From Corallococcus coralloides DSM 2259 (GTDB lineage: Bacteria; Myxococcota; Myxococcia; Myxococcales; Myxococcaceae): a DNA stretch of 64,000 bases. This document shows, piece after piece, positions 49,373-58,356 of this stretch. A model generated the notes under the pieces. It had not been told where the DNA came from and made no database searches. It saw only the letters and a list, made by a program, of their open reading frames with translations. Made by a program: the position numbers and the translations under genes. The stretch spans positions 744,001-808,000 of the forward strand of contig NC_017030.1 of NCBI RefSeq assembly GCF_000255295.1, in the 5' to 3' direction. Position 1 is the stretch's first letter; each line of letters opens with the position of its first letter.

Positions 49373-49445
49373 GCCCAAGTAGCTCAGTCGGTAGAGCAGG
49401 GGACTGAAAATCCCCGTGTCGGTGGTTCGATTCCGCCCTTGGGCA
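49373..49445 (+). tRNA. tRNA-Phe (anticodon GAA)
   Basis: The 73-nt sequence folds as a full cloverleaf: acceptor GCCCAAG (49373-49379) with CTTGGGC (49438-49444), D arm GCTC/GAGC, anticodon stem GGGGA/TCCCC with loop CTGAAAA, and T arm GGTGG/CCGCC with TTCGATT. The anticodon GAA is at 49406-49408. The base after the acceptor is A, followed by CACCA rather than an immediate CCA, so CCA is probably added after transcription. A terminator follows 20 nt later. Confidence 0.97.
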
Positions 49446-49464
49446 CACCAGTACGAAGAATCTG

Positions 49465-49494: not shown

Positions 49495-49558
49495 TTGCTT
49501 TTGTGCCCGCAGCGGGCTGGGGGGCGGGCTCCAGAGGCGCCCGCCCACCCACGCCGGT

Positions 49559-50434
49559 TCACCAGACAGCGAGAAGCGGGGTCCGCGCGTTCCGGACGGA
49601 GACCACCGCCCCTCGGGGGATGGGAATCATGCGGTGCGGCAGATCCAGGTAGACGGCCGCGTCATCCATCAGCGAACGGATCTGCACCTTCTCCCCAGCC
49701 TCCAGGATGCCCTTGTTGAACTGATAGCTCTTGCCCGGGGGCGTGTAGGCCTCGCGCACGACGTATTGCATCTGGTCCGACCCCACGAACATCCGGCGTC
49801 CTCCCGCGGAGCGGATGGCCGCGGTGGAGCCCGGCGCGGGGGCGATCCACACGCCGGAGGACTTCTGCTCCTCGCGGCTCTTTCGCACGGTCAACTCGTA
49901 GCGAGACGTCCCCGCCGGCACCTGGTTCGCGAAGAGGATGTCATTGAGGACCAGCGGCGCTTGACGCACCCCGTTGATGTCCAGCTCCAGCCGGTTCAGG
50001 GGCTGAATCCTCGCCTTGCCCCGCAGGAACCGCTCCGCCTTCTCGAAGAAGTTGTCCGCGTGGCCCTTGCAGAAGAACCCCACGCTTTCCTGCGGCGCGG
50101 AGTTGACGCCCAGCAGATGGCCCTCCTTGAGGTAGTGCGCGGTCTCGAGGAACGTCCCGTCCCCTCCGACGCTGATGACCAGCTCATAGCCCTGGATGTC
50201 GGCCAGCTCGTCCCGGTACTGCACGTCGAAGGCGATGGCGAGCTGCTGGAGCGCCTGCGTCACCGCGTCCAGGGTGCTCTTGTGTGCATTGGCATTGCGC
50301 CGCGCGCGCAAGGCATCCGCGGTCCTCACCCGGTTGGGGCGGCTGGGGCTGCCTTCCGCGGGGCCCGGGGCCTTGGACTCGTACGCGCCTCTCTTGTAGA
50401 CGATGAGGGCTTTGGGAGAAGTACCTGGTTGCAT
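49559..50434 (-). CDS. NAD kinase-like protein
   Basis: The 291-residue protein has the diagnostic NAD kinase motif GGDGTFL at 90-96 (VISVGGDGTFLETAHYL), followed by LGVNSAPQESVGFF and a conserved second half (PLVLNDILFANQV, GVWIAPAPGSTAAIRSAGG). Asp92 would be catalytic. The N-terminus has a less common Arg-rich segment (SRPNRVRTADALRARRNA). It phosphorylates NAD if active; whether it is the main NadK of the cell or a second copy cannot be told from this window. The gene is the first seen downstream of tRNA-Phe, transcribed toward it, and divergent from the 50573 gene. Confidence 0.85.
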   Translation of the reverse strand: MQPGTSPKALIVYKRGAYESKAPGPAEGSPSRPNRVRTADALRARRNANAHKSTLDAVTQALQQLAIAFDVQYRDELADIQGYELVISVGGDGTFLETAHYLKEGHLLGVNSAPQESVGFFCKGHADNFFEKAERFLRGKARIQPLNRLELDINGVRQAPLVLNDILFANQVPAGTSRYELTVRKSREEQKSSGVWIAPAPGSTAAIRSAGGRRMFVGSDQMQYVVREAYTPPGKSYQFNKGILEAGEKVQIRSLMDDAAVYLDLPHRMIPIPRGAVVSVRNARTPLLAVW

Positions 50435-50572
50435 TGTGTCTGGCGCCGACCTTTGGGGTTGAGTCTACCTTGAAGCCTAGCGGGGCACGCCGTGTTCCCG
50501 GAAGCCTGCTCCGCTGGATGAAGGGGGAGAGATAAAGCCTGACTTGATGAGTCACGGTCTTCACGACTTGAC

Positions 50573-51904
50573 GTGAGGAGCAACTCTCTCCGATTCTTCT
50601 CGAATATGTCTTCCCGGGCCCCCACGCCACAACCTGCGGATGGCAACGGGCCCGCCTCCCCGGAGGCCGAGGACCTGAGACAGCTCATGGCCCGGGGCTC
50701 GGAGCTGCACGCATGGCTTTCCCGGTGCGCGCCGGGGAGTCACCAGCGCCTCCATGAGTGCGCGCCCTACCGGCACCTGCTCCATTACGCGCAGAACGAG
50801 CTGGGCGTCGTCTGCATTGAGTTCAGCCATTCCGACGAGAAGAACTTCTTCGAGCGCGCGGTGCCTGTCTTCGCCATTCCGGCCCACAAGCCTGGCGCCC
50901 ACTTCCCGTTCAACCTGCTCCATGACTTGAGGCACTACGCGGCGGGGGACTTCGTCCCCTATTGCTTCGCCGAGGACGGAAGCCTCCTGCCGCTCTCCAA
51001 GGAGGAATACACAGCCATCACCTGCCTGGATGAGTCCGACGCGACGTGGTTCTCGGACGTCTTCATTCCCAACCGGCTGGGGCACGGGTTCGTCGAGGAG
51101 ATGCTGGGGTGCATCTGCGGGGCCCACGCCTTCGAGGAACTGGGCATCACGGACGAAGCGCAGGTCCGTCAGGCGATGCGCTCGATTGAGTTCGAAGGCA
51201 TCGTGCCCGCCGGAATCCTGCGCCACGAGCGCTTCAGGGGGGAGGTGCGTGAGCTGCTCGTCAACCGCTACCTCCGCTACCACGTGCTGGACCGGCGCCA
51301 GGGACGCGCCCGGTACGAGGCGTGGATGCGCCAGCCCGCCACGGCGCTGACGTGGCTGCGCTTCTGCAACGTGTTCAACGACCCGAAGGCCTACGAAGCC
51401 AACCAGCAGGCCAGCCTGGAGCGGATCCTGGAGTACCGCGAGGCTTTCAATCCGTTGCGCGCGCTGATTGCCCGGACGCTCAACTTCCATCTGCGGGTGA
51501 CGGCGCTCTCCCTGGCCTTCGCCCGGGAGGTCCTCCTCCAGGACGGCGCGGCGCTGCTGGGAGGGGAGGAGCTGGGGGCGCTCGTCGCGAAGCTCGCGCG
51601 CGACGTCGACGCCCTTCACGACCGGTTCATCCAGCTCAAGGCGATGAGCCAACGCGTCCAGGGCTGCGAGCCCACCGCGGAGAATCTCCAGGGCCTGCGC
51701 ATGGCGCGTGAATTCCAGCGGGATGCCGCGGGGCTCCGCGAGGACCTCCGGCGGCTCCATGCGGATGCGCGGATGCCCGCGCGACTCCAGGCGATGCACG
51801 CCCGCGTGCTGTCCTTCTACGACGCGGAGCACGTGGACATGTCCGGCGTCGAGGAGGACATCGAGGCGTGTCTGGCCCGCAGCCGGGCGCTTGCCGGGCT
51901 GTAG
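50573..51904 (+). CDS. Protein of unknown family in the aminotransferase/ABC exporter cassette
   Basis: The 443-residue protein has no signal peptide or obvious membrane helix and was not recognised. It is largely helical with conserved-looking polar clusters: CIEFSHSDEKNFFERA (about 85-100), HDLRHYAAGDFVPY (about 125-138), CLDESDATWFSDVF and GHGFVEEMLGCICGAHAFEE (about 165-200), and MRQPATALTWLRFCN. The repeated His, Asp and Glu on helices could bind a metal, as in ferritin-like or heme-oxygenase-like diiron enzymes, but this is a guess. The start may be GTG at 50573 or ATG at 50606. The gene converges on the ABC exporter pair, with 20 bp between stops. Confidence 0.7.
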   Translation: MRSNSLRFFSNMSSRAPTPQPADGNGPASPEAEDLRQLMARGSELHAWLSRCAPGSHQRLHECAPYRHLLHYAQNELGVVCIEFSHSDEKNFFERAVPVFAIPAHKPGAHFPFNLLHDLRHYAAGDFVPYCFAEDGSLLPLSKEEYTAITCLDESDATWFSDVFIPNRLGHGFVEEMLGCICGAHAFEELGITDEAQVRQAMRSIEFEGIVPAGILRHERFRGEVRELLVNRYLRYHVLDRRQGRARYEAWMRQPATALTWLRFCNVFNDPKAYEANQQASLERILEYREAFNPLRALIARTLNFHLRVTALSLAFAREVLLQDGAALLGGEELGALVAKLARDVDALHDRFIQLKAMSQRVQGCEPTAENLQGLRMAREFQRDAAGLREDLRRLHADARMPARLQAMHARVLSFYDAEHVDMSGVEEDIEACLARSRALAGL

Positions 51905-51924
51905 CCGGACCTGCCGCCTTCGCG

Positions 51925-53727
51925 CTACGCGGCCGGGGGCTCGTAGTGGACTTCCTGGTGCCGGTAGAACTTCTCGTAGAGCTCGGCGTAGTAGCCCCCC
52001 TGCGCGAGCAACCCATCGTGCGTTCCCTGCTCGATGATGTGTCCCTGGCGCAGGGCCACGATGCGGTCGAGTCCCCGGACCGTGGACAGACGGTGGGCGA
52101 TGACGACGGCGGTCCGGCCCGCGAGCACGCTGCGCAGGCTCTCGTGGATCTGCACCTCCGTCAGCGGATCCACGCTGGCCGTGGCCTCATCCAGGATGAC
52201 GATGGCCGGGTCCAGCAGCAGGACCCGCGCCAGCGCGACCAGCTGGCGCTGACCGAGGGACAGGTTCCGGCCGTTCTCCCCCACCGCCGTGGCCAGGCCG
52301 TCAGGAAAGGCCGCCATCCATTGCCCGGCGCCGATGGACGCCGTGATGGCCGCGACCTCCTGCTCGGTGGCTTCCGGGCGGACGTAGCGGATGTTGTCCA
52401 GGATGGTGCCGTTGAGCAGCATGGGGTGTTGGGGAACGATGCCGAGCTGCCGCCGGTAGGCTCCCAGCTCGAACTCCCGGACATCGTGCCCGTCCACGAG
52501 CACCTCGCCCTCGGAGAATTCGTAGAAGCGCGCCAGCAGCCGGGTGAGGCTCGTCTTGCCCGAGCCCGTGTGGCCCACCAGCCCCACCTTCTCCCCCGCG
52601 GACACCACGAGGTCGAGGCCCTGGAAGACGTCGGCCTGTGAGCCGTAGCCGAAGCGGACGTTCTTGAACTCGATGCGCCCGGTGAACCGGGGAGGGAGCC
52701 GGTCCCCGCGCTGGACCACCCGGGGCTGCTGCTCAAGCAGGTCGAAGACCCGCTCCGCGGCGGCGAGCCCCAGCTGGAACTGGCTCCAGAAGGAGGCGAC
52801 CTCCGTCAACGGGAGCCAGAGCACGCCCAGCAGCTGCGTGGCGAGGAACCACTGGCCCGCGGTCGCGTCTCCAGAGAGGACGGCGCGGCTGCCCACGTAG
52901 ATGACCAGGCCCAGCCCCATCCCGGTGAGGACGTTGAGGATGGGCATGATGGAGGCGAAGACGAACCCCTGCCGGAGGCTCACGGTGTACAGCTGGGCAT
53001 TCGACTGCTGGAACCGCTCGTAGACGCGCTCCTCCCTGCGGAAGTTCTTCGCGATGAGGATGGCCCGGATGGACTCCTGCACCAGCGCGTTGACCGTCGC
53101 GAGGATGCTCCGGGCCTGCCGCGTCGTCGCCCGGCCCAGCTTGCGGAACCCCAGCGCCGCGATGATCAGGAGGACGGACATCCCCAGCGCCGCGAGCGCC
53201 AGGGCGGGGTGCACGTGGACGAGCACCGCCGCGACCAGGGCGACGAGCACGAGCTGCCCCAGGAAGTTCACCCCCAGGGTGATGACGCTGGCGAAGGCCT
53301 GGGTGTCGGCCGTGACGTAGCTGGCGATCTGCCCGCTCTTCCTCGTGTCGAAGAAGGACATGTCCTGCCGCAGCACGGCGGCGAAGGCCTGCTGCTGGAG
53401 CCGGAGGACGACGTTCCCGACGATGCGGGCCGTCTCGCGCTGGCGCACGTAGTGGCACGCCCAGGACGTCACGGTGGCCAGGAGGATGAAGCCCACGAGG
53501 CCCAGCAGCTTCGAGGGGGTGGCGGCGGTCTGGAGCCAGTCCACGCCGCGCGCGAGCAGCAGCGGCAGCGCGGTCTCCACCATGGCCCCCAGGACGATGG
53601 CGCCGGCCACGGCCAGGACCGCCCTTCGGTGGGGTTTGAAGTGGACGAGGATGCGGCGCAGCAACTCCCCATCGCTCCGGCGGCGCGTATGGCCCAGGTC
53701 CCGCAGCCCGCTGAGAAGGTCTCCCAT
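51925..53727 (-). CDS. ABC half-exporter with catalytic Glu (TM288-like partner)
   Basis: The 600-residue protein fuses an exporter membrane domain (about 25-320, six hydrophobic helices such as AVLAVAGAIVLGAMVETALPL) to an ATPase domain. Walker A is GHTGSGKTS, Q-loop IVPQHP, Walker B VILDEATASVD with the catalytic Glu intact, H-loop IAHRLSTV. The signature is LSLGQRQL instead of LSGGQ. In heterodimeric exporters the subunit with the altered signature faces the degenerate site of its partner, which fits the adjacent gene. It begins 3 bp after the partner gene's stop and ends the operon. Confidence 0.92.
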   Translation of the reverse strand: MGDLLSGLRDLGHTRRRSDGELLRRILVHFKPHRRAVLAVAGAIVLGAMVETALPLLLARGVDWLQTAATPSKLLGLVGFILLATVTSWACHYVRQRETARIVGNVVLRLQQQAFAAVLRQDMSFFDTRKSGQIASYVTADTQAFASVITLGVNFLGQLVLVALVAAVLVHVHPALALAALGMSVLLIIAALGFRKLGRATTRQARSILATVNALVQESIRAILIAKNFRREERVYERFQQSNAQLYTVSLRQGFVFASIMPILNVLTGMGLGLVIYVGSRAVLSGDATAGQWFLATQLLGVLWLPLTEVASFWSQFQLGLAAAERVFDLLEQQPRVVQRGDRLPPRFTGRIEFKNVRFGYGSQADVFQGLDLVVSAGEKVGLVGHTGSGKTSLTRLLARFYEFSEGEVLVDGHDVREFELGAYRRQLGIVPQHPMLLNGTILDNIRYVRPEATEQEVAAITASIGAGQWMAAFPDGLATAVGENGRNLSLGQRQLVALARVLLLDPAIVILDEATASVDPLTEVQIHESLRSVLAGRTAVVIAHRLSTVRGLDRIVALRQGHIIEQGTHDGLLAQGGYYAELYEKFYRHQEVHYEPPAA

Positions 53728-53730
53728 GCC

Positions 53731-55509
53731 CTACGCCCCTCCCCCGCCCGCCGCCAGCGCGGGGGCTTCGCGCGGGGCGGACGTGTTGAAGATGCGCCGG
53801 TAGATGTCACAGCGCCCGAGCAGCTCGTCGTGGGTGCCCTGGTCGTGGACCTCGCCGCCCATGAGCAGCACGATGCGGTCGGCCCGGCGGATCTGCGAAA
53901 GGCGGTGGGTGATCAACACCGTGGTGCGGCCCCGGGAGCCTTCGCGCATGGCGCGTTGGATCTGCTCCTCGGTGGCGCTGTCCACGGCGCTGGTGGCGTC
54001 ATCCAGGATGAGGACGGCCGGGTCCACGGCGAGCGCCCTCGCCAGGGCGACGCGCTGCCGCTGGCCGCCGGAGAGGGTCACGCCCCGCTCGCCGATGACG
54101 GTGTCGTAGCCCTCGCGGAAGCCGGTGATGAACCCGTGGGCCTGCGCCAGCCGGGCCGCCTCCTGGATGGGGTGCGGGTCCTGCTGCTCCAGGCCGAAGC
54201 CGATGTTCGCGTGGAGGGTGTCGGAGAGCAGGAGGATCTCCTGCTCGACGACGGCGATGCCGGTCCGGAGCGAGTCGAGCGCCCAGTCGCGGACGTCACA
54301 CCCGTCGATGAGGATGCGCCCGCCCTCCACGTCGTAGGTCCGGTTGATGAGCCGGGCCAGGGTGCTCTTGCCCGCCCCCGCCTGCCCGACGATGGCCACC
54401 GTCTCCCCGGGCGCGGCGCGGAAGGAGACGTTCTTCAGGATGGGCCTGCCCCCATGGGAGAAGGACACCTGGTCGAAGACGAGCTCGCCCCGGATCCGCG
54501 CCCGGTGTCCCGCGGCCTTGTCCTCCCCCGTCGCCTCTTCGTCCAGGACGGTGAGCACGCGGCGCGCGCCCGCGAATCCCTCCTGGATGACGGTGACCGC
54601 GGAGAGCAGCAGCTGGGTCGGTCCGCGGAAGGTGGTCATCAGGCCCATGTACGCCACGAAGCTTCCCACCGACAGCGCGCCCTGGCTGGCGCGCAGGGCT
54701 CCGTGGAGGAAGGCCAGCGTGAGGCAAAGCCCCAGGAAGAGGGGAGGCAGGTACCGGGCCTGCGCGGCGCCCTGGGAGATCATCAGGTCCCGGCAGCGCT
54801 CCGCCTGCAGCTGGATGCGCCGTGCCTCCTGCTCCTCCTGGCCGGACCACTTGGTCAACTCGATGCCGGACAGGGCCTCGACGACCTCCGCGTTCAGCAG
54901 GCCGTTCTGGCGGCGCAGGGCGGAGGCGATGGGGTTGAACCGCCGCGCGTGGAGCCGCGTGCCCACGAGCAGGCCTCCGGTGAACAGCAGCGGGGCCACC
55001 AGCAGCTCCGGTTCGATGCGGCCGATGAAGAACAGGCTCAACAGGATGCAGGCGAAGGCGTTGAACAGATGCGCCATGCCCGGGCTCATCATCGGGTCCA
55101 ACAGGCGCACGTCATCCGTGGTCCGCGCCATCAGGTCGCCCACGCGCTGGCGCTGGTGGAAGACCAGGTTCTTGTGCAGCAGCACGCCGTAGAACTCGGC
55201 GCGGGCGTCCCGCTCCAGGCGCTGCGCGAGGACCTCCATGGCGCCGCTCGCGACCAGCGAGGCGGCTCCCCGCAGCAGCACGGCGCCGAGGATGGCGAGC
55301 ACCAGGACGCCGATGCGGGAGCGGTCCGTCCCGGCCGAGAGCACCTCGTCGAAGGCGGCCCCGGTGAGCCACGGGATGGCCACCACCAGGAGGTTTCCCA
55401 GGGTCGCCATCCCCACGAAGGCCAGCACGTAGGCCCTGTTCCTCCAGACATGCGCGATGATCCACCGCGCCACCCTCGCGGTGGACGGGCCGGGCGGGGC
55501 GGCCGTCAT
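53731..55509 (-). CDS. ABC half-exporter with degenerate Walker B (TM287-like partner)
   Basis: The 592-residue protein has an exporter membrane domain (about 15-310) and an ATPase domain. Walker A is GQAGAGKST, the signature LSGGQRQRV and the H-loop ITHRLSQI are canonical, but Walker B ends LILDDATSAVD, with Asp where the catalytic Glu should be. The same Asp-Asp pattern marks the degenerate-site subunit TM287 of Thermotoga. Its ATG overlaps the stop of the aminotransferase gene (ATGA). The substrate is unknown; export of the product of the neighbouring PLP enzyme is an inference from context. Confidence 0.92.
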   Translation of the reverse strand: MTAAPPGPSTARVARWIIAHVWRNRAYVLAFVGMATLGNLLVVAIPWLTGAAFDEVLSAGTDRSRIGVLVLAILGAVLLRGAASLVASGAMEVLAQRLERDARAEFYGVLLHKNLVFHQRQRVGDLMARTTDDVRLLDPMMSPGMAHLFNAFACILLSLFFIGRIEPELLVAPLLFTGGLLVGTRLHARRFNPIASALRRQNGLLNAEVVEALSGIELTKWSGQEEQEARRIQLQAERCRDLMISQGAAQARYLPPLFLGLCLTLAFLHGALRASQGALSVGSFVAYMGLMTTFRGPTQLLLSAVTVIQEGFAGARRVLTVLDEEATGEDKAAGHRARIRGELVFDQVSFSHGGRPILKNVSFRAAPGETVAIVGQAGAGKSTLARLINRTYDVEGGRILIDGCDVRDWALDSLRTGIAVVEQEILLLSDTLHANIGFGLEQQDPHPIQEAARLAQAHGFITGFREGYDTVIGERGVTLSGGQRQRVALARALAVDPAVLILDDATSAVDSATEEQIQRAMREGSRGRTTVLITHRLSQIRRADRIVLLMGGEVHDQGTHDELLGRCDIYRRIFNTSAPREAPALAAGGGGA

Positions 55510-56741
55510 GGCGCCCTCGGGTCCCCTGACGCCCAGGCCGAGAGGCCCTCGAAGAACTGGGCCTCGAGCCGGCCCCAGTCCAGCGCCTGGTGGGCGAGGC
55601 AGGCATAGGAGGGATGCGCGTCCAGCAGCAGCACGCCCTGGTCGGCGAGGCTGCGGCGCAGGCGCTTGCGCTGCTCTTCATCGGCCAGGAGCGAGCCCCC
55701 GTAGACGAGCTCGAACAGGCTTCCTCCCAGGACCGCCTTCGCGGAGACCCGCTCCAGCAGGCCGTGGCGGCGGGAGGCCGCGTTGAAGCACTCGACGATG
55801 CGCTGCCCGGTCCGGGCGATGACCTGGTAGCCGTCCTGGGACTCGAGGATGTCGAAGGTCGCCAGGGCCGCGTAGATGGCGAACATCTCCTTGGAGAACG
55901 TGCCCCCCAGGCGGACCTGCTCCGTGGCCCGCAGCAGGTGCTCCCGGCCCACGATGAGGCTGATGGGCGCGCCGTTGGCCAGCGCCTTGCCCAGCACGAG
56001 CAGGTCGACGTCCAGCCCCGCGTCCATGGCGACGCCCAGCCGCGACACCCGTCCACCCGTCTTCGTCTCGTCGAAGATGGTGACGACCCCCGCCTTGCGG
56101 CACAGCGACAGCGCCTCGCGGAGGGTCGCCAGGTCCGTGAAGGACACCAGGTAGGCGTCGATGATGAAGGCCCCGATGCGCTCGCGGTGCTGCTCCAGCA
56201 GGGCCTCCAGCTCGGCCAGGTCGAAGCCCGTCCAGTTGAAGACGGGCTCGGAGTCGCTCACGCCCCGCATGCCTTCGGTGTACTTGACCTGCTCTCGCAG
56301 CGGCGAAGCCAGCGGCTCGTGCCAGCGGATGGAGTTGGCGAGCTGGGAGTCGTGCCAGCCCACGTAGCCGCAGCGGATGATGCCCAGCCGCTTCGTCGTC
56401 ACCGCGGCCAGGCGGAAGGCCCCCGTCACCGCCTCCGAGGCCGTCTTGAAGATGGACGCCCGCAGGTCGTCGTGCCCGGCCAGCAGCTTGGAGAGGTAGT
56501 CCAGATGCCAACGCGTAAACCCTGGCATCATGAGCCCGTTGTTCAACAGGCCCGCGACCCGTGTCTGGAACTCGGGCAGGGCGTGGCCCAGGATGATGGG
56601 GCCGTATCCCAGGACGAAATCGACGTAGGTGCGGCCCTGGGTGTCATGGACGAAGCCCTGCTCGCCGCGCTCGAAGACGATCTCCCGGCTGCCGAAGCGG
56701 GCCATCCTCGCGATGCCTGAGTGTGCAAGTGATTTGATCAT
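55506..56741 (-). CDS. Class III PLP-dependent aminotransferase, GSA-aminomutase-like
   Basis: The 411-residue enzyme has the class III signature: PLP Lys252 in LVLGKALANGAPIS and Asp224 in IFDETKTGGRVSRLGVAMD. The segment KTASEAVTGAFRLA corresponds to the GSEA helix of glutamate-1-semialdehyde aminomutase, and GGTFSKEMFAI is also family-typical. Such enzymes move amino groups within or between small molecules. Outside haem biosynthesis they appear in natural-product clusters, and here no hemL context is present. It is the first gene of a three-gene operon with two ABC half-exporters. The ATG at 56741 is used; a GTG at 56753 adds four residues. Confidence 0.9.
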   Translation of the reverse strand: MIKSLAHSGIARMARFGSREIVFERGEQGFVHDTQGRTYVDFVLGYGPIILGHALPEFQTRVAGLLNNGLMMPGFTRWHLDYLSKLLAGHDDLRASIFKTASEAVTGAFRLAAVTTKRLGIIRCGYVGWHDSQLANSIRWHEPLASPLREQVKYTEGMRGVSDSEPVFNWTGFDLAELEALLEQHRERIGAFIIDAYLVSFTDLATLREALSLCRKAGVVTIFDETKTGGRVSRLGVAMDAGLDVDLLVLGKALANGAPISLIVGREHLLRATEQVRLGGTFSKEMFAIYAALATFDILESQDGYQVIARTGQRIVECFNAASRRHGLLERVSAKAVLGGSLFELVYGGSLLADEEQRKRLRRSLADQGVLLLDAHPSYACLAHQALDWGRLEAQFFEGLSAWASGDPRAP

Positions 56742-56782
56742 GGAGGGCGCCACTCGGGAGCTTTCGGGGGAAATCGCAGCTT

Positions 56783-56807
56783 TCTATAGCGTCGCGGATT
56801 GTGTCAA
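56783..56807 (-). promoter_or_regulatory. Promoter-like elements upstream of the aminotransferase operon
   Basis: On the minus strand a perfect TTGACA (56802-56807) is followed by TATAGA (56783-56788), but only 13 nt separate them, too short for standard sigma-70 spacing. Either the true -35 lies elsewhere or an activator bends the DNA, as for MerR-type systems with abnormal spacers. The surrounding 20 bp are AT-rich relative to neighbours. Confidence 0.35.
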
Positions 56808-56885
56808 CGCGCTCGTGCCCCGCGCCACGGTGTCAATCACAGCAAGGACCTCCACGGGCGGAGGTCCCTTGCCGCGGGTGGGCCA

Positions 56886-57629
56886 CTACGGCGCGCAGTA
56901 GACGGCGCGGTCGATCTTGTCCGTCACGGTGACGATGGAGCCCGCGCGGACGACGTATTCGCTGGCGCCCACGTGCGTCTCCGCATTGCACCAGTCATAG
57001 GTATAGCCCAGCCCCGTCCACGGGTAGTGCGTGCTCTGCCAGAAGCCGTAGCTGGAGGCGTAATTGGCGTTGATCCAGTTCTTGTGCTCGGCGGTCGCGG
57101 TGGCGGGAAATTGCAGGCCGCACGCGGTGTCGTCGATCTCCGCGTCCGGGCACGGGCGGAACATGTCCCCCGGCTTGACCCACATCTCGACGAAGTAGCG
57201 GGCGTTGTCGCTGTCGGTGGCCGGAGGCAGGCCGAGGAACTGGTTGACGCGGGGCACGAGCTTCTCCGCGCTCACCGTCTTGCACAGCTCCTGGACCTGG
57301 GGCGCGGCGGTGACCCACACCTCGCGCGACAGCGTGTTGTCCCCGAGCGCGTAGCCCGTATACGTGGTCCAGACCACCATGCGCACCGCGGTCCGGTTCT
57401 CATTCCAGACGAGCCTGTCATTGGCGGGGCTGATGGCCCACAGGCCCGTATGGATGCTCTGCGCCGTGGGCTCGGCGGCCGTGCGGACCGCCTCGGAGTA
57501 GGTCTGCGCGTCGCAGACGAGTTCCGCGGGCTGCCGCGGCGGGTCCTGGGGGTCGTCACCGCATGCGGTCAAACACAGCAGGGCCGCCGCGGTGGTGAGT
57601 GAGAACGGGCGGAACAGGTGGACATTCAT
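56886..57629 (-). CDS. Lipoprotein of unknown function
   Basis: The 247-residue product has a lipoprotein signal (FSLTTAAALLCLTAC, lipobox LTAC). The mature domain is predicted mixed alpha/beta, with six further cysteines that could form disulfides (ELVCDAQTY, ELCKTV, CPDAEIDDTACGL, WCNAETH, VYCAP) and many aromatic residues in the C-terminal third (YASSYGFWQSTHYPWTGLGYTYDW). No enzyme motif was recognised. The GGAG about nine bases upstream of the ATG at 57629 supports this start. It lies 144 bp beyond the aminotransferase start and is probably independently transcribed. Confidence 0.78.
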   Translation of the reverse strand: MNVHLFRPFSLTTAAALLCLTACGDDPQDPPRQPAELVCDAQTYSEAVRTAAEPTAQSIHTGLWAISPANDRLVWNENRTAVRMVVWTTYTGYALGDNTLSREVWVTAAPQVQELCKTVSAEKLVPRVNQFLGLPPATDSDNARYFVEMWVKPGDMFRPCPDAEIDDTACGLQFPATATAEHKNWINANYASSYGFWQSTHYPWTGLGYTYDWCNAETHVGASEYVVRAGSIVTVTDKIDRAVYCAP

Positions 57630-57813
57630 CCAGTCATCTCCGGGAAGGAGACGCACTATACCGACGGCAGTGTGGAATACAATGAAGACATGTAAAGCTT
57701 GCTATGTGTGGAATCCATCGTGAGAGGGATTGGGCGGGTGGGGTGCGGCCGTGGAGGGGGTGCACATCCGGGCGCGACGCGGTAGATGGGTGTTCCGGAG
57801 GTTCATCAACGCA

Positions 57814-58356
57814 ATGGACGCGAACGTGGTGGCGGAGCTGGAGAAGGCGGGCGTGAAGGTGGAGGACCCCATGCGCCTGTTCATCCCCGTGGAACGGGAC
57901 GAGCAGGGCCAGGTGAAGCCCGTGGGCGACGAGGTGCCCGTGCGCTTCGGTGACGTCACCGCCCACGTGCGCCTGCAGCCCATCTCCGCGCTGTGGACCG
58001 GCAACAAGCAGCCCCCTGACTTCAGCCGGCCTCCCTTCCCCGAGTACGAGCCGTTCTTCTTCCTCATCGAGGCCACCGCCGCCGGCTTCTGCCGCGACAC
58101 CCGCCACGCGGAGGTCGACCAGGAGTTCTCCCAGCTCTACCGGCACCTCGTGCGCCGGCCCGACGGCCACCATAAGAACCCGCTCTTCTCCTACCTGCGC
58201 GCCGCCGCCCGCCTGTACCTGTCCCTGCGCGACGTCAGCCAGGCGGAGTTCGAGGCCGTCGCCCAGCGCCTCCACCAGTCCGCCAAGCTGCACGCGGGCC
58301 ACGTCGGCAGCACGAACTACTTCCAGGCCGTGCTGCGGCAGGTGCTGGGCGCCTGA
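57814..58356 (+). CDS. Conserved hypothetical protein
   Basis: The 180-residue soluble protein begins MDANVVAELEKAGVKVEDPM and has a beta-rich middle (MRLFIPVERDEQG, VPVRFGDVTAHVRLQP) and a mostly helical C-terminal half (EVDQEFSQLYRHLVRRPDG, LFSYLRAAARLYLSLRDV). No signal peptide, membrane segment or recognised motif was found. GGAGG lies about 12 bases before the ATG at 57814. The gene is 92 bp upstream of the M16 pair. Function unknown. Confidence 0.75.
   Translation: MDANVVAELEKAGVKVEDPMRLFIPVERDEQGQVKPVGDEVPVRFGDVTAHVRLQPISALWTGNKQPPDFSRPPFPEYEPFFFLIEATAAGFCRDTRHAEVDQEFSQLYRHLVRRPDGHHKNPLFSYLRAAARLYLSLRDVSQAEFEAVAQRLHQSAKLHAGHVGSTNYFQAVLRQVLGA

Follow-up and report, generated by a model that had tools for sequence, protein, structure and literature searches.

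An orphan gene of Corallococcus coralloides DSM 2259 in a strain-specific segment at tRNA-Phe, tentatively read as part of a small make-and-export cassette

The 64,000-nucleotide stretch of C. coralloides DSM 2259 DNA analysed here (the window) contains a gene for a 443-residue protein, hereafter the orphan, which faces a pair of ABC half-exporter genes. The locus raises the question of what this protein does and whether it has any part in the work of the genes around it. We find that the orphan gene lies in a strain-specific segment of about 8.26 kb just 3′ of tRNA-Phe, which had not been noticed before, and we tentatively read its product as a soluble cytoplasmic protein of a small make-and-export cassette that the strain gained at a tRNA-Phe hotspot (probability about 0.45). 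The features are collected in Table 1.

Table 1. Features of the tRNA-Phe site, in window coordinates.
Feature	Position	Strand	Remarks
tRNA-Phe (gaa)	49373-49446	+	segment begins ~55-75 bp 3′ of it
Strain-specific segment, ~8.26 kb	49502-57757		end uncertainty ~20 bp left, 1 bp right
NAD-kinase-like gene, extra	49559-50434	-	divergent from orphan, 138 bp between starts as called
Orphan gene, 443 aa	50573-51904	+	ORF and coding score; GTG start as called
HDLRH codons, residues 117-121	50921-50935	+	sole HDxxH-type candidate for a metal motif; putative function
ABC half-exporter, MsbA-type domain order	51925-53727	-	convergent with orphan
Second ABC half-exporter	53731-55509	-	3 bp from the other half-exporter
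Class III PLP aminotransferase	55506-56753	-	4-bp overlap with start of second half-exporter
Lipoprotein-like secreted protein, family not recognised	56886-57656	-	last segment gene; very weak family hits only

The orphan is a true gene by its codon composition. With a reference codon table drawn from eight window genes, of which four lie within the strain-specific segment, its frame scored +0.41 bits per codon and each of the remaining five between -0.20 and -1.58; its GC content at codon positions 1, 2 and 3 is 0.705, 0.437 and 0.885. That the frame is open merely by chance, as can happen where GC is high, is highly improbable given the sole positive score and the high third-position GC, even though the window is rich in long spurious frames and one of 423 codons runs antisense to the gene (50561-51832, -). 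The upstream in-frame stop ends at 50542, and the true start is uncertain: it may be ATG 50606 or ATG 50687 instead of GTG 50573. A scan of 50400-52000 found no promoter-like site and one terminator-like site, which lies inside the orphan gene and is at chance level. The highest 19-residue Kyte-Doolittle mean of the protein is 1.19, and hydropathy thus suggests a soluble protein with no membrane segment.

The initial annotation placed the protein in no recognised family, and this is borne out by every library used. Pfam (to E <= 10), NCBIfam, PHROG and PADLOC yielded no family match, and the PDB sequences no solved-structure match, with only alignments at E >= 0.24. No match at E <= 1e-3 was found in 58 relatives or in 194 other genomes of the phylum. 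Three further genome samples were drawn around Phormidium (L037, n = 386), Agrobacterium (L035, n = 398) and a Chloroflexi MAG (L036, n = 400), in which one, none and none of the genomes, respectively, passed the same threshold. At E <= 0.01, matches occurred in 2 of 194, 2 of 386, 6 of 398 and 3 of 400 genomes, where about 2, 4, 4 and 4 are expected from the per-genome E-values; the matches across these 1378 other genomes are at chance level. The best of them (G454, E 3.9e-4) covers 50 N-terminal residues and contains an internal stop, and the second best (G187, E 0.00112) lies in a locus with phosphotransferase and HPr-kinase-like genes, as read by eye. Phyla beyond the sampled ones, Actinomycetota among them, were covered through plasmids only, against which tblastn (E <= 0.01 and E <= 10) gave two matches at E 7, both at chance level and to a DnaB-like helicase. 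Nothing convincing was found among phages at E <= 1 or in three pattern scans of viral contigs, and a pattern scan of genome contigs returned 27 stretches, none of which was confirmed.

The site itself was compared over 18 kb around the orphan with five of 15 congeners, chosen for their long contigs. In all five, the left flank is 93-96% identical up to positions 49501-49519, and on the right alignable DNA returns at 57757/57758 with 90-97% identity. Between the flanks, the congeners carry about 0.63, 0.73, 2.35, 3.6 and 4.6 kb of DNA unlike the segment of the window, and tblastn of the six segment proteins against these five loci gave no match at E <= 1e-3. Because the five lengths differ and no segment protein is matched there, the tRNA-Phe site is a hotspot in the genus and the segment is strain-specific with respect to the five congeners read, in all of which it is missing as a whole from this site. 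All 16 genomes of the genus, the strain's own included, have the gene on the right-hand flank.

Two side observations concern the congener loci. One (L033) has an 859-aa helicase-like ORF at the site, recognised by eye, and another (G013, locus L030) carries about 4 kb more just past the conserved right-flank gene, between window positions 58352 and 58369.

To the left of the orphan, the segment contains a gene for an additional NAD-kinase-like protein. Against Pfam NAD_kinase (cut-off 25.5), this protein scored 24.7 bits in the protein scan and 26.2 bits, over the cut-off, in the genome scan; its closest PDB sequences are NAD kinase 2 and bacterial NAD kinases, and it retains GGDGT, LND and the PGSTA..SAGG stretch. 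An ordinary NAD kinase is encoded elsewhere in the genome (at 2658680, 65.3 bits), as it is in the congeners, and aligns with the segment's protein at 28% identity over 137 residues. The segment's protein has no match at 1e-50 in 15 congeners. A second NAD_kinase match over the cut-off occurs in one of nine congeners (G007) and aligns poorly in the C-terminal motifs of NAD kinases.

To the right of the orphan, on the opposite strand, the aminotransferase and half-exporter genes overlap or adjoin and are therefore on one message. The aminotransferase fits no named NCBIfam group (best score 119 bits, cut-off 525) and has no match at 1e-30 in 38 relatives. Proteins 39-42% identical to it were found in four loci only, two from Agrobacterium (L034 and L035), one from the Chloroflexi MAG (L036) and one from Phormidium (L037), where they sit among other biosynthesis-like genes; none of the four loci contains a relative of the orphan.

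The gene order just described, with a biosynthetic enzyme beside a coupled exporter (a 4-bp overlap with one half-exporter, the other 3 bp on), suggests the production and export of some amino-bearing compound, and it is the starting point for our tentative reading of the segment as a small pathway whose genes would work together. The class III aminotransferase would add an amino group to a small metabolite or move one on it, and the NAD-kinase-like enzyme would phosphorylate a substrate or a cofactor. The orphan would act as an enzyme, not as a regulator or an immunity protein, and would perform one further step, most likely tailoring, perhaps at a metal that H117, D118 and H121 would bind; the two half-transporters, expressed from the same message as the aminotransferase, would then pump the product out. 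Against such a cassette, a second instance of the gene set was not found, so the genes have not been seen to travel together, the orphan is on the strand opposite to the aminotransferase-exporter genes, and the hotspot may gather unrelated genes singly. A literature search yielded nothing on this locus and no paper joining an NAD kinase with a class III aminotransferase in a biosynthetic gene cluster.

The initial annotation had suggested a linked role for the orphan and the exporter from the 20 bp that separate their convergent ends. This distance was read correctly but, as convergent genes have no common promoter, it says little about linkage; what raises the plausibility of a link is that both genes lie within one strain-specific segment. 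The same site offers the strongest alternative, namely that the orphan is an unlinked passenger that entered the hotspot separately and is unrelated to the exporter and the aminotransferase, which is conceivable though doubtful. A hotspot like this one, whose flanks enclose 0.6 to 4.6 kb of other DNA in five congeners, would admit such a passenger, and the convergent orientation of the orphan and the exporter agrees with it, as do the relatives of the aminotransferase that have no orphan-like neighbour elsewhere. The GC content is about 0.63-0.66 over the 5′ half of the orphan and the kinase-like gene versus about 0.70-0.72 over the exporter and the aminotransferase, a dip that could mean two origins and would fit separate entry. 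On the other hand, no genome showed a boundary between the orphan and the exporter, and all six genes are jointly missing from the five loci read.

A narrower form of the preferred reading, which we weighed separately and consider unlikely, holds that the orphan of the cassette is a metalloenzyme, with a diiron site or another metal. The initial annotation had raised this idea from the motifs HDLRHYAAGDF, DESDATWFSD and GHGFVEEM, which are indeed present (residues 117-127, 153-162 and 170-177), and from a clustering of His, Asp and Glu at helix-like spacing, which shuffling did not uphold. Pairs of these residues at i+3 or i+4 number 23, against a mean of 27.7 in 5000 shuffles (0.89 of which reach the observed value), and His residues with a partner at these distances number 12, against 11.8 (fraction reaching the observed value 0.52). 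The densest 30-residue stretch contains 9 such residues against 10.5 (2000 shuffles; fraction 0.99), and at most 7 His fall within 60 residues against 5.8 (fraction 0.21), in a protein with 19 His among its 443 residues (4.3%). The spacing is thus at chance and the statistical basis of the proposal fails. HDLRH may still mark a metal site, a candidate that rests on a single HDxxH; 0.04 such motifs are expected by composition, for a motif that was chosen after inspection.

The ligand patterns of known metalloproteins were compared with the sequence. Classical diiron carboxylate proteins of the ferritin-like kind have two ExxH pairs on paired helices; in the whole orphan there is a single ExxH, at residue 83, and no Pfam family matches at E <= 10. 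Hemerythrin-like proteins and YtfE have HxxxE pairs in a four-helix bundle; in the orphan, HxxxE is found at 171 and 185 only, and neither this pattern nor ExxH occurs in the helical region 284-441. To haem-oxygenase-like diiron oxygenases (HDOs), the orphan has no match in Pfam or NCBIfam, the libraries that this comparison covered, but this family is very divergent.

The structure prediction that the initial annotation had proposed as a check yielded models too poor to place side chains. AlphaFold2 was run twice from the single sequence, without relatives, on the whole orphan (mean pLDDT 45.4, pTM 0.35) and on residues 30-300 (mean pLDDT 40.1, pTM 0.32). The description of the protein as helical finds a parallel in these low-confidence models only, and part of residues 69-140 is strand in the second of them; the best-predicted part is the helical C-terminal region, about 284-441, with pLDDT blocks up to 77. 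In VIA-align, this part aligned best with the iron-binding protein 6n63 (Z 12.1, 134 residues, rmsd 2.8), and the diiron protein YtfE was also among the partners (Z 9.3-9.8), both of which would be in line with a metalloenzyme. However, the partners are all of the helical-bundle kind, Cas12a, designed maquettes and others included, intermediate scores (Z 9-12) are also reached by de novo bundles and unrelated coiled coils, and by VIA-align's own caution Z values under about 13 carry little meaning for helical bundles. None of 325 Foldseek matches (E <= 10) reached E <= 0.001. We do not trust these modelled likenesses.

Three family leads came up, of which Coq4 was not supported and Amidase_2 was rejected. 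The Coq4 family (PF05019) has the metal motif HDxxH-x11-E, and its HD[LI]xH resembles HDLRH, with a Gly four residues past the second His in one of two Coq4 sequences (L047), as in the orphan. However, the Glu is at +12 from the second His in the two Coq4 members, where the orphan has A133, its E134 being at +13; there was no Pfam hit at E <= 10, and hhalign gave a probability of 0.3%, aligned elsewhere, with a profile of two sequences only (Coq4 was found in 2 of 60 genomes). An Amidase_2 (PF01510) lead arose from the sample of 398 genomes, in which two of the six orphan matches are amidases, aligned with orphan residues 78-148. Over residues 80-149 the orphan is 30% identical to these two selected proteobacterial amidases, and one of their Zn-ligand His corresponds to H105, but nothing in the orphan corresponds to the conserved HxH-type, WHAG and late H/K/D positions. 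The hhalign probability of 81% (E 1.2e-5) obtained with these two, which had been picked as best hits among the 398 genomes, fell to 0.5% when six amidases were added to make eight. Finally, HDLRH together with LGH at 169 recalls the box motif of tyrosine recombinases, which prompted a comparison; Pfam gave no Phage_integrase match.

If the orphan were not an enzyme, it could be a helical protein of immunity, sensing or regulation, with the product as its ligand or the divergent kinase-like gene under its control. Its start, which diverges from that gene at a distance of 138 bp, and its helical best-predicted C-terminal part are consistent with such a role, but no DNA-binding, sensor or defence family was matched, and we regard it as rather improbable.

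The boldest extension of the preferred reading appears equally hard to credit: the orphan would found a new family of HDxxH-metal enzymes in a cassette with the NAD-kinase-like enzyme, the class III aminotransferase and the two-part ABC exporter, and the extra kinase could even be a self-resistance copy, in which case NAD kinase would be the target of the exported product. Self-resistance is made less plausible by the low identity of the kinase-like protein to the strain's own NAD kinase (28%, as given above), and no paper was found on NAD kinase self-resistance to an antibiotic natural product.

What the locus means depends on which reading holds. As a mere passenger, the orphan would be one among many strain-specific orphan genes of the genus; a pan-genome paper on 24 genomes (PMC6306037) reports that over 75% of the accessory genes are found in fewer than four of them. 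As a member of a make-and-export cassette, it would belong to a compact metabolite pathway of a predatory soil myxobacterium, with recognised assembly-line enzymes absent among the six proteins scanned. One step of that pathway would be carried out by a protein that has no known relative, which would make the locus a definite target in the search for new chemistry.

Two kinds of known systems bear comparison with the segment. The clusters of Agrobacterium pAt1 and of the Chloroflexi MAG PMIP01000084 share with it a class III aminotransferase, 40-42% identical. They differ in having genes for OMP-decarboxylase-like, NUDIX, dTMP-kinase-like and weak radical-SAM proteins and for a class V aminotransferase, and they have neither the orphan nor the NAD-kinase-like gene. 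As an observation apart from the segment, these genes form, with the class III aminotransferase and a nucleotidyltransferase-like protein, a set common to L034 10719-19271 (Agrobacterium plasmid NZ_CP048575.1; from annotation and Pfam) and L036 3520-16582 (PMIP01000084.1; by eye from ORFs), which looks like an uncharacterised nucleotide-derived metabolite cluster.

tRNA-anchored genomic islands are a known kind of element. The segment differs from the form with an integrase and direct repeats: no integrase was found among its six proteins scanned (Pfam, NCBIfam), and no repeat of the tRNA-Phe end in the segment among the 20 of 28 repeat families listed. It resembles such islands in its place beside a tRNA gene, just 3′ of which it starts, in the different site and variable cargo of its relatives, and in the second, partial tRNA-Phe end that two of the congeners have (L031 7278-7360; L033 6242-6330).
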